Made by a program: the position numbers and the translations under genes. A model generated the notes under the pieces. That model did no database searches. It saw only the letters and a program-made list of their open reading frames with translations, and was not told the DNA's origin. This document shows positions 36,225-60,155 of a stretch of 64,000 bases of DNA, one piece after another (the first letter of the stretch is position 1; every line of letters starts with the position of its first letter). The stretch comes from Roseimaritima ulvae. Its GTDB lineage: Bacteria > Planctomycetota > Planctomycetia > Pirellulales > Pirellulaceae. The stretch spans positions 4,941,404-5,005,403 of the forward strand of contig NZ_CP042914.1 of the NCBI RefSeq assembly GCF_008065135.1, read 5' to 3'.

Positions 36225-37451
36225 ATGAAATATGCGATAATTATTCCCGATGGTTGTGCCGACGAGCCGATCGAGGCTCTCGCAGGACGCACGCCCCTGC
36301 AAGCTGCTCAGCTGCCGTTTACCGATGCGCTGGCAGCGGCCGGTTCGTTGGGGCTGGCCAACAATACGCCCGCGCATTTGCCAGCCGGCAGCGAAGTCGC
36401 CAATCTGTGCCTGCTGGGTTACGACCCGGACCAATATTTTACCGGGCGGGCGCCTTTGGAAGCCGCCGCGCAAGGCATCGAATTGGGCGAACACGACTGG
36501 GCCGTGCGCTGCAACCTGGTGACGATTGAAGACCAAGTAATGGTCGACTTCACCGCCGACCACATCACCACCGACGAAGCCGCCCAGCTATTGGCCACTG
36601 CGCAGCAAGCTTTATTGAGTGATCAAACGGGACCGGGCAAGTTTGAATTTGTCACCGGCGTCAGCTACCGCAACCTGTTGATCTACCGTGGCCAGCCGGA
36701 CACGCCGCCGCCGTTTTCCGGCGAAACCCGCACCCGCGCGCCACACGACCTAACCGACCTGCCGGTCACCGATGATTTTCCCCGGGGCCCCGGCAGCCAA
36801 CAATTGCAGCGGTGGATGGACGCCAGCGAGGAAATCTTCCGCGACCATCCGGTGAACCAACAGCGCCGTGCGGCGGGCAAACGCCCGGCAACCAATCTAT
36901 GGCTATGGGGCTTGGGCAAATCGCCACAGCTGCCCTCGTTCGCTGACCGCCACGGTGTGCAAGGCGTGATGATCACAGCGGTCGACCTGCTCCGCGGAAT
37001 CGCCGCCTTGGTGGGCTGGCCGAGAATCGAAGTCGAGGGCGCGACCGGCTACCTGGACACCGACTACGCCGCCAAAGGTCGCGCTGCGGTCGAAGCCCTG
37101 CAGTCCAACGATTTGGTGTGCGTGCATATCGAAGCCCCGGACGAAGCGTCGCACGAAGGCCGTCACGACGCCAAGATCGAAGCCCTGCAGCAGATCGACC
37201 AACACATCGTCGGCCCCCTGCACAAAGCGTTGGCCGAACAGGGCGATTACCGGATATTGGTCACCCCCGATCACCCCACGCCCTGTGGCACCAAAAAACA
37301 CAGCCACGGCATGGTGCCGTTTGTAATCGCCGGCACGGATGTCGAAGCCGACGAGCAGCAAACGTACGACGAAGTCGCCGCCGCAGCCGCCGGCCGACGA
37401 CTCGACGCCGGCTGGGACCTGATGCAGCAGTTTATTAAGGGGAGTGGGTGA
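36225..37451 (+). CDS. iPGM-superfamily protein: cofactor-independent phosphoglycerate mutase or proposed homoserine kinase
   Basis: A 408-residue alkaline-phosphatase-superfamily enzyme of the archaeal ApgM type (COG3635). The start is YAIIIPDGCAD with a metal Asp, followed by PAHLPAGSEVANLCLLGYDP and the late metal cluster HIEAPDEASHEG, VTPDHPTPCGTKKHSHGMVPF. This subgroup is annotated either as 2,3-bisphosphoglycerate-independent phosphoglycerate mutase or, in the bacterial branch (TIGR02535), as a proposed homoserine kinase. The next plus-strand gene is aspartate kinase, which favours the threonine-pathway role, though repeats separate them. ATG 36225 matches the conserved N-terminus; the upstream extension to 36096 runs into repeats. 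Confidence 0.78.
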   Translation: MKYAIIIPDGCADEPIEALAGRTPLQAAQLPFTDALAAAGSLGLANNTPAHLPAGSEVANLCLLGYDPDQYFTGRAPLEAAAQGIELGEHDWAVRCNLVTIEDQVMVDFTADHITTDEAAQLLATAQQALLSDQTGPGKFEFVTGVSYRNLLIYRGQPDTPPPFSGETRTRAPHDLTDLPVTDDFPRGPGSQQLQRWMDASEEIFRDHPVNQQRRAAGKRPATNLWLWGLGKSPQLPSFADRHGVQGVMITAVDLLRGIAALVGWPRIEVEGATGYLDTDYAAKGRAAVEALQSNDLVCVHIEAPDEASHEGRHDAKIEALQQIDQHIVGPLHKALAEQGDYRILVTPDHPTPCGTKKHSHGMVPFVIAGTDVEADEQQTYDEVAAAAAGRRLDAGWDLMQQFIKGSG

Positions 37452-37491
37452 GTGGGGCAGTGGGGCAGTGGGGCAGTGGGGCAGTGGGGCA
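37452..37491. repeat. GTGGGGCA octamer array, 5 copies
   Basis: Five perfect 8-bp units directly after the iPGM-like stop. The same octamer recurs at 46640-46662, again close to an AAATCTC array. Confidence 0.9.
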
Positions 37492-37496
37492 GTCGT

Positions 37497-37524
37497 AAAT
37501 CTCAAATCTCAAATCTCAAATCTC
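37497..37524. repeat. AAATCTC heptamer array, 4 copies
   Basis: Four perfect units. The array resumes at 37821-37840 on the far side of the inserted element, and a 19-copy array of the same heptamer lies at 46730-46862. Confidence 0.9.
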
Positions 37525-37525
37525 C

Positions 37526-37818
37526 TGACTTTAACGGAATCTATGTATGGGCCGTACAAAGCCGAGCAATCGTTTAACCCGTAGCCGGAGGAGGCCGCTG
37601 AGTTAGTCGTGGAGCGACTGATTCAGCGGCCTCCGCAGGCGCAGGCGTCCGCGCGCCCTAGCATTGCAGTCGACGCGAACGGTTCGCCACCACCGGCAAA
37701 CACGCCAACGTTTTCGCTTGCCCTCGCCGACGCCTGCGGCTAGGGGTTAAACGATTGCTCGGTGGTTCAAAGCCTGACAAATCGTTACCGAACCCATACA
37801 TAGATTCCGTTAGAGTCA
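37526..37818. mobile_element. MITE-like element, 293 bp, with 26-bp terminal inverted repeats
   Basis: The ends (37526-37551 and 37793-37818) are inverted copies matching at 25 of 26 positions, beginning TGACT and ending AGTCA. A second inverted pair lies inside (about 37561-37591 and 37732-37763, containing GCAATCGTTTAACCC). A long perfect hairpin (GGAGGCCGCTGA ... TCAGCGGCCTCC with an inner AGTCG/CGACT stem) sits at about 37588-37633. There is no transposase gene. It interrupts an AAATCTC array, so a target duplication cannot be read unambiguously. Confidence 0.82.
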
Positions 37819-37904
37819 GCAAATCTCAAATCTCAAATCTGAGACACGAGATCTGAACTCGTTCCCACTTCAAACTTCCCCCTTCAAACTTCAAACTTCA
37901 ATAG

Positions 37905-39692
37905 ATGTCGCTCATAGTTCAAAAGTTTGGCGGAACCAGTGTCGCCGATGCGGAAAAGATTCGCGCGGCGGCTCGCAAAGCGGTCCGTGCTCAACAACAG
38001 GGGCACAAAGTCGTGATGGTGGTCAGCGCGATGGGAAAAAACACCGATACCCTGCTGGACTTGGCCTCGCAGGTCAACGAACGACCGCCGGCCCGCGAAC
38101 TGGATATGCTGCTCAGCACTGGCGAACAAATCAGTGTCGCTCTGGTGGCCATGGCGATCGACAGCATGGGCTCCAAGGCGGTCAGCTTGACCGGCGGCCA
38201 GATGGGCATCCGCACCGACAACACGTTCACCAAAGCTCGTATTCAGTCGATCAGCACCGATCGCATCGAACGCTTGCTGGACGACGGTAATATCGTCATC
38301 GCTGCCGGATTCCAAGGCATCGACGAAGACCTGAACATCACCACGCTCGGCCGCGGCGGCAGCGACACCACGGCCGTCGCGTTGGCAGCCGTGCTGGGCG
38401 CGGAAGCCTGCGAGATCTACACGGACGTCGACGGCGTCTACACGACTGACCCGCGGGTGTTGCCCGAAGCCCGTCGCGTGGACGTGATCAGCTACGACGA
38501 GATGCTGGAACTGGCCAGCCTCGGCGCCGGGGTGATGCACAGCCGGAGCATCGAATTCGCGAAGAAATTCGGCGTGCCGATCCATGTCCGCAGCAGTTTC
38601 AGCGACACCGATGGCACGATGATCGTCACGGAACCGGAATCCGCCGCGGCGGCCGTTTGTGGTGCGGCTCTAACCCGCGATGAAGCTCGCGTGACCGTGT
38701 TGGGAGTCCCCGATGTGCCGGGTACCAGCCTGGAAATCTTCTCGGCCATCGCCGACCAAAAGGTGGCCGTCGATATGATCGTGCAGAACATCGGCAACGA
38801 TGGCCGCACCGACATCTCCTTTACCGTTCAGCGCAGCGATCTGGAATCGACCCTCCAGGCGGTTGGCGCGGCAGCCAATCGCTTGGGCGCGGCCGGGATT
38901 TCCCACGACGATAAAGTCTCCAAGGTTTCGGTCGTCGGTTTGGGGATGGCCGTGCAAACCGGCGTGGCGCACAAAATGTTTCGCGCCCTGGCCGCCGCGG
39001 ACGTCAACATTCAGATGATCACGACCAGCGAAATCAAGATCTCCGTGCTGGTCTCGCGTGATCAAGCCGACCGGGCGCTGCGCGCGGTGCATCAGGCCTT
39101 TGAGCTGACGGTCGAACCGGCGGACAAAAAGTCGTGGGCTCAGATCCGCGCCGCACGCAGCGAGGAAGCCGATATGGAAAGCTTGGTGGCACGGTTGCAA
39201 GGCGACGTGCTGGAAGAATTAACCCTGACCGGCATCGCCGTGACGCCCAATCAGGCTCGCGTGACCCTCCGCGGCGTTCCCGATACGCCGGGCATCGCCG
39301 CCGACATGTTCGAATCGGTCGCCCAGGCCGGGGTGTTCGTGGACATGATCGTGCAAGGCATCGATGGCGAAGACGGTCGCACCAGCGTCAGCATGACGGT
39401 GGCCGAAGCCGAATTGCAGGGCTGCCTCAAGGTCGCGAAAGAATTGATGCAGCGGCATGGGCTCCGTGACGTCCAGGGCGGCGACGGGATCGCCAAGCTG
39501 ACCGTCAGCGGGATCGGTTTGCGGAGCCACACCAACGTGGGCACGCTGATGTTTCGTTCGCTGGCCGACGTCGGCATCAATGTGGAAATGATCAATACCA
39601 GTGAACTGCAAGTCAACGCGGTGATCGACGGCAAACAAGCCGAACAGGGCTGCGAACAATTAAATACGGCCTTCGCCGGTGTGCTGCGATGA
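37905..39692 (+). CDS. lysC: Aspartate kinase with four ACT domains
   Basis: A 595-residue aspartokinase, the first step to lysine, threonine and methionine. The kinase domain (about residues 1-245) has VQKFGGTSV, TLGRGGSDTTAVALAA and the EIYTDVDGVYTTDPR signature. It is followed by two ACT pairs: about 262-400 (EARVTVLGVPDVPG ... VSVVGLGMAVQTG) and about 433-595 (QARVTLRGVPDTPG ... LTVSGIGLRSHTN). Most bacterial enzymes have one pair; the doubled form resembles cyanobacterial aspartokinases and suggests elaborate feedback control. Its stop overlaps the next start by 4 nt (ATGA). Confidence 0.95.
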   Translation: MSLIVQKFGGTSVADAEKIRAAARKAVRAQQQGHKVVMVVSAMGKNTDTLLDLASQVNERPPARELDMLLSTGEQISVALVAMAIDSMGSKAVSLTGGQMGIRTDNTFTKARIQSISTDRIERLLDDGNIVIAAGFQGIDEDLNITTLGRGGSDTTAVALAAVLGAEACEIYTDVDGVYTTDPRVLPEARRVDVISYDEMLELASLGAGVMHSRSIEFAKKFGVPIHVRSSFSDTDGTMIVTEPESAAAAVCGAALTRDEARVTVLGVPDVPGTSLEIFSAIADQKVAVDMIVQNIGNDGRTDISFTVQRSDLESTLQAVGAAANRLGAAGISHDDKVSKVSVVGLGMAVQTGVAHKMFRALAAADVNIQMITTSEIKISVLVSRDQADRALRAVHQAFELTVEPADKKSWAQIRAARSEEADMESLVARLQGDVLEELTLTGIAVTPNQARVTLRGVPDTPGIAADMFESVAQAGVFVDMIVQGIDGEDGRTSVSMTVAEAELQGCLKVAKELMQRHGLRDVQGGDGIAKLTVSGIGLRSHTNVGTLMFRSLADVGINVEMINTSELQVNAVIDGKQAEQGCEQLNTAFAGVLR

Positions 39693-46639: not shown

Positions 46640-46662
46640 GGGGCAGTGGGGCAGTGGGGCAG
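46640..46662. repeat. GTGGGGCA octamer array, about 3 copies
   Basis: Same unit as 37452-37491, ending about 6 nt before a REP hairpin. Confidence 0.82.
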
Positions 46663-46667
46663 TAGGG

Positions 46668-46729: not shown

Positions 46730-46862
46730 AAATCTCAAATCTCAAATCTCAAATCTCAAATCTCAAATCTCAAATCTCAAATCTCAAATCTCAAATCTCA
46801 AATCTCAAATCTCAAATCTCAAATCTCAAATCTCAAATCTCAAATCTCAAATCTCAAATCTC
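46730..46862. repeat. AAATCTC heptamer array, 19 perfect copies
   Basis: 133 bp of uninterrupted AAATCTC units, ending 10 bp before the stop of the minus-strand VWA gene. There are no spacers between units, so it is not a CRISPR. Confidence 0.95.
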
Positions 46863-59440: not shown

Positions 59441-60155
59441 CTGCCCAGACCAAAGCGAGCCGACGAAGCCAACGGGATCTACCACGCCCTCAACCGGGGC
59501 AACGCGAGGAGGACGATCTTTGAAAAACCGCAGGACTATGATGCGTTTGAACGGATCCTCGCGGAAGGTCTGCAGCGATACCCTTGCCAAATCCTGAGCT
59601 ACCAGTTGATGCCCAATCACTGGCATTTTGTGCTGCAGCCCTTGGAGGACGGGGCGATGAGCAATTTCCTGCGGTGGGTCACTTTGACCCATACTCAGCG
59701 GTATCATGCACACTATGGCACTGCGGGAGAGGGGCATGTCTACCAAGGTCGGTTTAAGAGCTTCCCCATTCAGGATGACGGCCACTTCTTCGTTGTGTCT
59801 CGCTATGTCGAGCGAAACGCATTGCGAGCCGGACTTGTCGACCGGGCCGAAGCATGGAAATGGGGATCTTTGCACCATTGGCGAAGTCGCCCCGAACCGT
59901 CGCCAAAACTGCTGTCCTCCTGGCCGCTCACACGTCTTCCCAACTGGACCCGTCGCGTGAATGAGCCACTCTGCGACAAGGAGCTCAAGGCCGTTCGCTG
60001 GAGTGTCAAAAGGGGCTGTCCATTTGGTGAACAGGCCTGGGTGGAATCGATCGCCAGGAGGCTTGGTTTAGAGTCGACCCTGCGGCCGCGCGGACGCCCG
60101 CGAGTGCGTCCCCTGAAGGAAACTCGCAAACAATAACTCCTGGCACCTTAGTTCT
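59384..60155 (+). mobile_element. RAYT (REP-associated tyrosine transposase) module
   Basis: A transposase gene flanked by inverted 20-nt motifs: AGAACAAAGGTGTCAGGAGT at 59384-59403 and the complement of AGAACTAAGGTGCCAGGAGT at 60136-60155 (18 of 20 match). Both contain GGAG, a tetranucleotide like those read by RAYT enzymes. The left motif is preceded by a nested hairpin and a partial GAGAGAACAAAGGTG duplication. Confidence 0.75.
59441..60136 (+). CDS. REP-associated tyrosine transposase (RAYT), CTG or degraded start
   Basis: A single-strand HUH transposase of the IS200-like RAYT group, about 231 residues. From CTG 59441 the frame reads LPRPKRADEANGIYHALNRG, matching the usual start MPRPxRxxxxGxxYHxxNRG, so ATG appears changed to CTG. 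The first ATG is inside the HUH motif (MPNHWHFVLQP) and would remove the N-terminus. The catalytic His pair HWH and the nucleophile Tyr (SRYVERNALRAGL) are intact, as are RFKSFPIQDDGHF and a basic C-terminus. Either CTG is used or the gene has lost its start. RAYTs are thought to copy REP hairpins around genomes. Confidence 0.82.
   Translation: MPRPKRADEANGIYHALNRGNARRTIFEKPQDYDAFERILAEGLQRYPCQILSYQLMPNHWHFVLQPLEDGAMSNFLRWVTLTHTQRYHAHYGTAGEGHVYQGRFKSFPIQDDGHFFVVSRYVERNALRAGLVDRAEAWKWGSLHHWRSRPEPSPKLLSSWPLTRLPNWTRRVNEPLCDKELKAVRWSVKRGCPFGEQAWVESIARRLGLESTLRPRGRPRVRPLKETRKQ

Follow-up and report, generated by a model that had tools for sequence, protein, structure and literature searches.

The question raised by this locus is how a strongly palindromic segment came to interrupt an array of AAATCTC heptamers just upstream of lysC in Roseimaritima ulvae. 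The window (the whole stretch of R. ulvae DNA analysed, 64,000 nucleotides) had previously been annotated from its sequence, and the original prediction described the segment as a MITE-like element without a transposase, with terminal repeats matching at 25 of 26 positions, nested inner repeats and a strong hairpin; insertion into the array, which resumes on the far side, was considered the simplest history. This description is borne out. Inclusion of the flanking C and G moves the limits from 37526–37818 to 37525–37819 and extends the terminal inverted repeats (TIRs) to 27 bp with 26 matches, the inner repeats match at 86%, and the DNA fold of the element (-98.4 kcal/mol, z -12.9) was not equalled in stability by any of 200 dinucleotide shuffles. 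No open reading frame of at least 80 codons is present within the 295 bp, and the array continues with three units after the four on the left. The 8 bp target duplication, the in-phase array left on excision, the core built from a pair of REP sequences and the role of heptamer arrays as the usual target are additions to that description.

Features of the element upstream of lysC and of its surroundings (positions in the window)
Feature	Position	Strand	Remarks
Whole non-autonomous element, 295 bp	37525–37819	.	Delimited by terminal repeats, copies and target duplication
Left terminal inverted repeat, 27 bp	37525–37551	+	CTGACTTTAACGGAATCTATGTATGGG
Right terminal inverted repeat, 27 bp	37793–37819	-	26/27 against the left repeat
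Left inner inverted repeat	37562–37598	+	Holds REP 37571–37591 (CGTTTAACCCGTAGCCG...)
Right inner inverted repeat	37726–37762	-	Holds REP 37733–37753 in inverse orientation
Internal hairpin of the core	37584–37640	+	Arms of 26 (37584–37609 and 37615–37640), 85% complementary
Left copy of the 8 bp target duplication	37517–37524	+	CAAATCTC
Right copy of the 8 bp target duplication	37820–37827	+	CAAATCTC
Heptamer array, left part (target)	37497–37524	+	(AAATCTC)x4
Heptamer array, right part	37820–37840	+	Three units
Presumed apgM-like phosphoglycerate mutase, upstream neighbour	36225–37451	+	Reading frame listed from 36096, ATG at 36225
lysC (aspartate kinase), downstream neighbour	37905–39692	+	Starts 85 bp after the element; name from the original prediction

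Removal of the element together with one copy of CAAATCTC yields an unbroken, in-phase AAATCTC array, and this restored phase and the duplication together support insertion into the array. A search for further copies was positive both in R. ulvae and in its relatives. The R. ulvae genome (8.21 Mb, one contig) contains eight copies over element positions 1–293 at 86–100% identity, that of the window included, as well as shorter ones; its copies diverge from the element of the window by 5–14%. A 23-mer of the end has 22 sites there at up to three mismatches. An insertion sequence with these ends was rejected for this genome, since the 18 TIR sites inspected, also at up to three mismatches, all fall at known copies or fragments. 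Within the family, the 23-mer (up to three mismatches) occurs in ten of 241 genomes and its reversed-pattern control in none. The exact TIR pattern gave 14 stretches in named genomes, nine of them in Roseimaritima sediminicola JC651 and five in the MAG HKST-UBA42; in the former, a TIR 17-mer has 205 sites, many of them paired, against eight control sites. A laxer pattern was found in nine of 396 genomes sampled from the order (the control matched once in each of three genomes) and added G355, G509, G513, G521 and, with a single site, G125. Viral contigs searched with the exact pattern and a plasmid collection searched with the element DNA gave no match. Two miRNA matches in Rfam lay far below their cut-offs and were read as chance. 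Neither the unpaired R. sediminicola TIRs nor the variant ends in the g36 genomes could be retained as full or parent insertion sequences: seven distinct loci of the former look truncated by eye, and the delimited elements of the latter are short too, with locus L119 holding another, inserted insertion sequence.

The insertion behaviour was examined on 55 distinct elements delimited in six genomes (33 in R. sediminicola, ten in R. ulvae, four in G066, three each in G237 and G231, and two in G233) by pairs of ends with no more than seven mismatches each and nine together, lying less than 450 bp apart. Identical copies and elements flanked by fewer than 8 bp of sequence were dropped. The loci had been picked by their matches rather than at random, and the set does not extend to G235, G236 or the second family of the order in which such ends occur. 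When exact flank duplications of 3–16 bp were sought, 8 bp was found in 16 elements and 15 bp in four, three of the latter being also exact at 8 bp, while none of the 55 had an exact duplication of 3–7, 9–14 or 16 bp. The exception to the 8 bp rule is the R. sediminicola element L084 132–455, which has an exact 15 bp duplication and no 8 bp one. A match of at least seven of eight positions is seen for 30 of the 55 elements, compared with a mean of 9.0 and a maximum of 18 in 2000 shuffles; among the R. ulvae elements this holds for only five of ten. The duplication is likewise 8 bp (CTAATTTC) at L080, a site with little array.

The target octamer reads S-ARRYYT-S. With at most one mismatch it is present on one or both sides of 50 elements and on both sides of 43, leaving five with no such octamer on either side. 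An in-phase heptamer adjoins 47 of the 55 elements, including all ten delimited in R. ulvae, where the fragments L009, L012 and L013 fall outside the set. The corresponding background in 464 kb of the R. ulvae genome (a 400 kb sample plus the window) is 318 of 6104 octamers at up to one mismatch and 109 of 470 exact octamers.

The arrays themselves are widespread. Among short tandem arrays in the 464 kb sample, period 7 is the most frequent, with 13 entries (three in the window) against 0–4 for any other period in the range 4–15; units outside the motif, such as GAAGGGG, CTCGCAA and AATCAGA, also occur. Of the 241 family genomes, 75 contain three consecutive units of the motif. In R. ulvae this pattern has 903 matches and its mirror image 16, matches inside one array being counted with overlap, although the mirrored control is high in some genomes, with 493 against 0 in G007, and also exceeds the motif in G182, G067 and G139. 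In other family genomes (for example at L182, L184 and L197) the array units change letters yet keep S-ARRYYT, a constancy that the search itself required. Octamer arrays of GGGGCAGT precede both AAATCTC arrays of the window, at 37439–37493 before lysC and at 46640–46667 before 46730–46862. Arrays are present in eight of the ten TIR-positive family genomes and in 67 of the 231 others (p 0.0017, uncorrected for kinship), so that arrays are associated with the element and can nevertheless exist in its absence.

This bears on the order of events. Arrays might instead have arisen from the element, through replication slippage beside the hairpin that amplified the duplicated target after insertion. 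Consistent with such an order, arrays often start at an element and their units can differ between its two sides (for example at L006); in the 37 of 55 elements that could be used, the left and right outer units are modestly alike (4.41 of 6 positions against 4.07 when permuted, p 0.005) and are identical in six cases against 3.1 (p 0.06); and the genus relatives have neither array nor element before lysC. However, arrays exist without elements, both in the 67 TIR-negative genomes and at 46730–46862 of the window, where 19 perfect AAATCTC units are uninterrupted, and no octamer–CTGAC junction occurs in any of 30 array loci taken from genomes in which the 23-mer was not found (G125, with its single site under the laxer pattern, among them). 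Moreover, the excised site of the window is an in-phase array, and period 8 would be expected from an 8 bp duplication by itself. We therefore regard amplification after insertion as improbable and prefer to see the arrays as the target.

The cores enclosed by these ends are diverse. Those of the 55 elements fall into six groups (25, 10, 8, 5, 4 and 3 elements) that show no blastn match to one another (E 1e-4, at least 30 bp), each limited to one genome or genus, with R. sediminicola holding two. The core of the window's element is an inverted pair of a REP sequence, REP-A, as in REPINs. REP-A has 47 sites in 400 kb of the R. ulvae genome; of the 13 Y1_Tnp matches in this genome, ten loci were examined and REP-A lies near one only (L075, six sites), a locus of 3174 bp whose 212-residue reading frame scores as Y1_Tnp with 29 bits, the cut-off being 23. 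The REP family is thus linked to a RAYT-like gene, and an earlier reading of the core as an integron attC array was dropped once this gene had been seen beside the same repeats. Another Y1_Tnp (IS200/RAYT-like) gene lies in the window at 59477–59818 (L070), without either of the REPs searched for nearby. A second REP-like sequence, GTAGCYGAAGTCGCCAGACTTTGG, has eight window sites at up to four mismatches (20095, 23315, 32626, 32659, 35848, 42980, 43160 and 46668) and is perhaps one of the GTAG REPs described in PMC3733652.

In G231 a core query has 90 matches, including a cluster at 2531198–2532567 without any of the six sites that the 23-mer end has in this genome, and the same query has no match in R. 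sediminicola JC651 (G083). In loci of the other genomes, core matches lie beside a TIR in 96 of 98, 15 of 16, 21 of 21, 10 of 11 and 7 of 7 cases, the loci having been picked for their TIRs. At four G231 loci (L119, L282, L283 and L285) an insertion sequence with a DDE_Tnp_1 transposase (PF01609) occupies the hairpin loop of a REP-like core inside a MITE, at core positions 60–69 and 206–215 and with 10 bp duplications as read from overlapping matches; this insertion sequence forms a third level of nesting and appears to target such hairpins.

The presence of a REP pair suggests a second alternative, namely that the whole segment is a REPIN or BIME moved by the single-strand Y1 transposase of a RAYT, its outer repeats being merely an extended palindrome. 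The RAYT-like gene of the genome would suit this explanation, as would the tandem BIME-like arrays of similar sequence, with 139–221 bp units carrying the REP of the core, that are seen at L016, L020 and further places in R. ulvae. Against it, the outer ends are conserved from genome to genome around changing cores, and 8 bp are duplicated on insertion, which Y1 transposition is not known to do. The duplication and the conserved outer ends argue that the unit moved otherwise than by single-strand transposition of a REP pair, and we consider a REPIN or BIME origin of the entire segment very doubtful. Since the same ends surround different cores in different lineages, the ends rather represent the mobile unit and the core an exchangeable filling.

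A search for an insertion sequence with matching ends, suggested in the original prediction, was successful in another family of the order, where a transposase gene lies beside such ends. On a contig of G513 the end is followed, from 84 bp inside, by a 113-residue reading frame and then, in another frame, by one of 298 residues that is stopped by the end of the contig. The latter matches the NCBIfam IS256 model with an E of 5e-6, at 25.7 bits against a curated cut-off of 150. In G509 a decayed piece 96% identical to this transposase is separated from an end of this kind by about 190 bp, and relatives occur in ten of 119 genomes of the family of G513. In G420 a frame of 428 codons lies between 29 bp ends (28 of 29 matching), the right one at the end of the contig; these ends agree with those of the window's element at 12 of the first 16 bases. 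The best NCBIfam match of its product is IS1249 (E 1e-4, 21.4 bits), followed by IS256 (0.003, 16.8 bits against 150); both matches lie far below cut-off. Pfam gave nothing above cut-off for the transposase proteins and a PDB sequence search with that of G420 gave nothing at E values up to 1. Relatives at 26–45% identity are found on cyanobacterial plasmids, most of the annotated ones being named hypothetical protein. Three aligned sequences share, among other invariant residues, D159, D221, C242-x-x-H245 and RTSN-x-x-D330, which may, judging from the alignment, represent a Mutator-like catalytic core.

Insertion sequences of the IS256 family duplicate 8–9 bp of target, and their transposases are expected to carry a TTN-x-x-E motif. 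The present group resembles IS256 and Mutator-like insertion sequences in the similarity of its transposase and in its 8 bp duplication, a length read on the MITEs (the transposase-bearing copies of G513 and G420 reach a contig end and that of G509 is decayed). It differs in that the similarity is weak and partial and in having, in the three-sequence alignment, RTSN-x-x-D in place of the expected motif. With one truncated sequence as query, no transposase homolog was found in R. ulvae or in 16 of 18 other genomes searched, and no complete element was seen that combines the exact TIR variant with an entire transposase.

Prokaryotic MITEs are non-autonomous derivatives of insertion sequences. 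The element shares with them a short, non-coding sequence without a transposase, terminal inverted repeats, multiple copies and, with the exception of L084, a target duplication of constant length. It departs from them in its interior, one of six unrelated groups of palindromic cores not seen as the remnant of a parent insertion sequence, and in the concentration of its insertions in heptamer arrays; an autonomous element with the same ends, as known MITEs may have in the same genome, was not recognized in R. ulvae. In Pack-MULEs and fold-back Mutator elements of eukaryotes, which belong to a related transposase superfamily, the ends also enclose unrelated interiors. The present elements are in contrast bacterial and very short, with palindromic repeats in the place of gene pieces. 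As in the REPINs and BIMEs with RAYT, the GTAG REPs and the TIRtrons treated in PMC3733652, where REPs are reported for Planctomycetes, R. baltica among them, the core is an inverted REP pair from a family with a neighbouring RAYT-like gene, but here conserved ends flank the pair and an 8 bp duplication accompanies them. Heptameric repeats are reported from Xanthomonas and Nostoc (PMC4692102) and, as TAACTGA, from Beggiatoaceae, cyanobacteria and Bacteroidetes (PMC4679880). As in these cases, the arrays are intergenic, of period 7 and over-represented; unlike them, many keep S-ARRYYT with changing letters and hold transposon insertions.

We propose, with good though not complete confidence, that this is a MITE, non-autonomous and of IS256-like type, whose REP core is exchangeable and which settles in heptamer arrays. 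Its 27 bp ends would be shared with a group of insertion sequences that encode an IS256-like DDE transposase; its interior is an inverted pair of REP palindromes from a host family with a RAYT-like gene. The transposase, acting in trans, would have cut and inserted the element with an 8 bp stagger. Insertions prefer S-ARRYYT-S, most of all where this octamer is repeated with period 7, and they gather in heptamer arrays, which would already have been in place and may serve as harmless landing places. In different lineages the same ends surround different palindromic cores, presumably through exchange. Since no transposase homolog was found in R. ulvae, it is the mobilizing enzyme of this genome that we infer to have been of the IS256-like type. 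Activity there is probably old, given the 5–14% divergence of its copies and the small share of its elements with well matching duplications. That 33 of the 55 elements come from a single genome weighs against the proposal, as do the five elements without the target octamer, the 15 bp duplication of L084 and the low IS256 scores.

A wider reading, which we put forward only tentatively, is that a group of DDE transposases reads a phased tandem repeat, S-ARRYYT-S every 7 bp; the heptamer arrays, perhaps a motif-constrained class of repeats of this family that the papers searched do not describe, would then be a genome-wide landing pad, and the ends a shuttle that has repeatedly taken up host REP families and thus joined two unrelated transposition systems. 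If this is true, tandem repeats of set period would be an unusual choice of target for a bacterial transposon, and insertion into them would account for the spread of such elements without harm to genes. With six groups of unrelated cores inside the same ends, both the swapping of MITE interiors and the way DDE and RAYT systems interact can be tested directly, and the motif-bound arrays of the family are brought to attention. As far as the literature searched reaches, the kind of element is known, and the combination and the choice of target are new: searches on planctomycete REPIN/RAYT, Rhodopirellula MITEs, cyanobacterial heptanucleotides, nested MITE/REP and IS256 MITEs in tandem repeats gave no title describing such an element, and those on Roseimaritima transposases with repeats and on heptanucleotide tandem repeats in planctomycetes gave nothing.

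The genes apgM and lysC are adjacent in all four genomes of the genus searched, separated (from the last aligned apgM residue) by 453 bp in R. ulvae and by 107, 54 and 72 bp in three relatives. In these three relatives, compared as the original prediction had proposed for strains, the element is absent and so is the array, as judged by eye. That the long hairpin is an attenuator or insulator between the two genes and is kept for that role would agree with the gap of only 54–107 bp in the relatives and with the RNA fold of the R. ulvae gap (-214 kcal/mol, z -10.2, none of 100 shuffles equally stable), but a simple scan of 37380–37960 gave neither a σ70-like promoter nor a T-run terminator, the genome has further copies at other sites and the three relatives do without it, and we hold such a role to be quite unlikely. 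For the MITE favoured here, an effect on lysC expression, as the original prediction had suggested, is possible. A TTCAAAC-like stretch at 37867–37901 ends just before the start of lysC.
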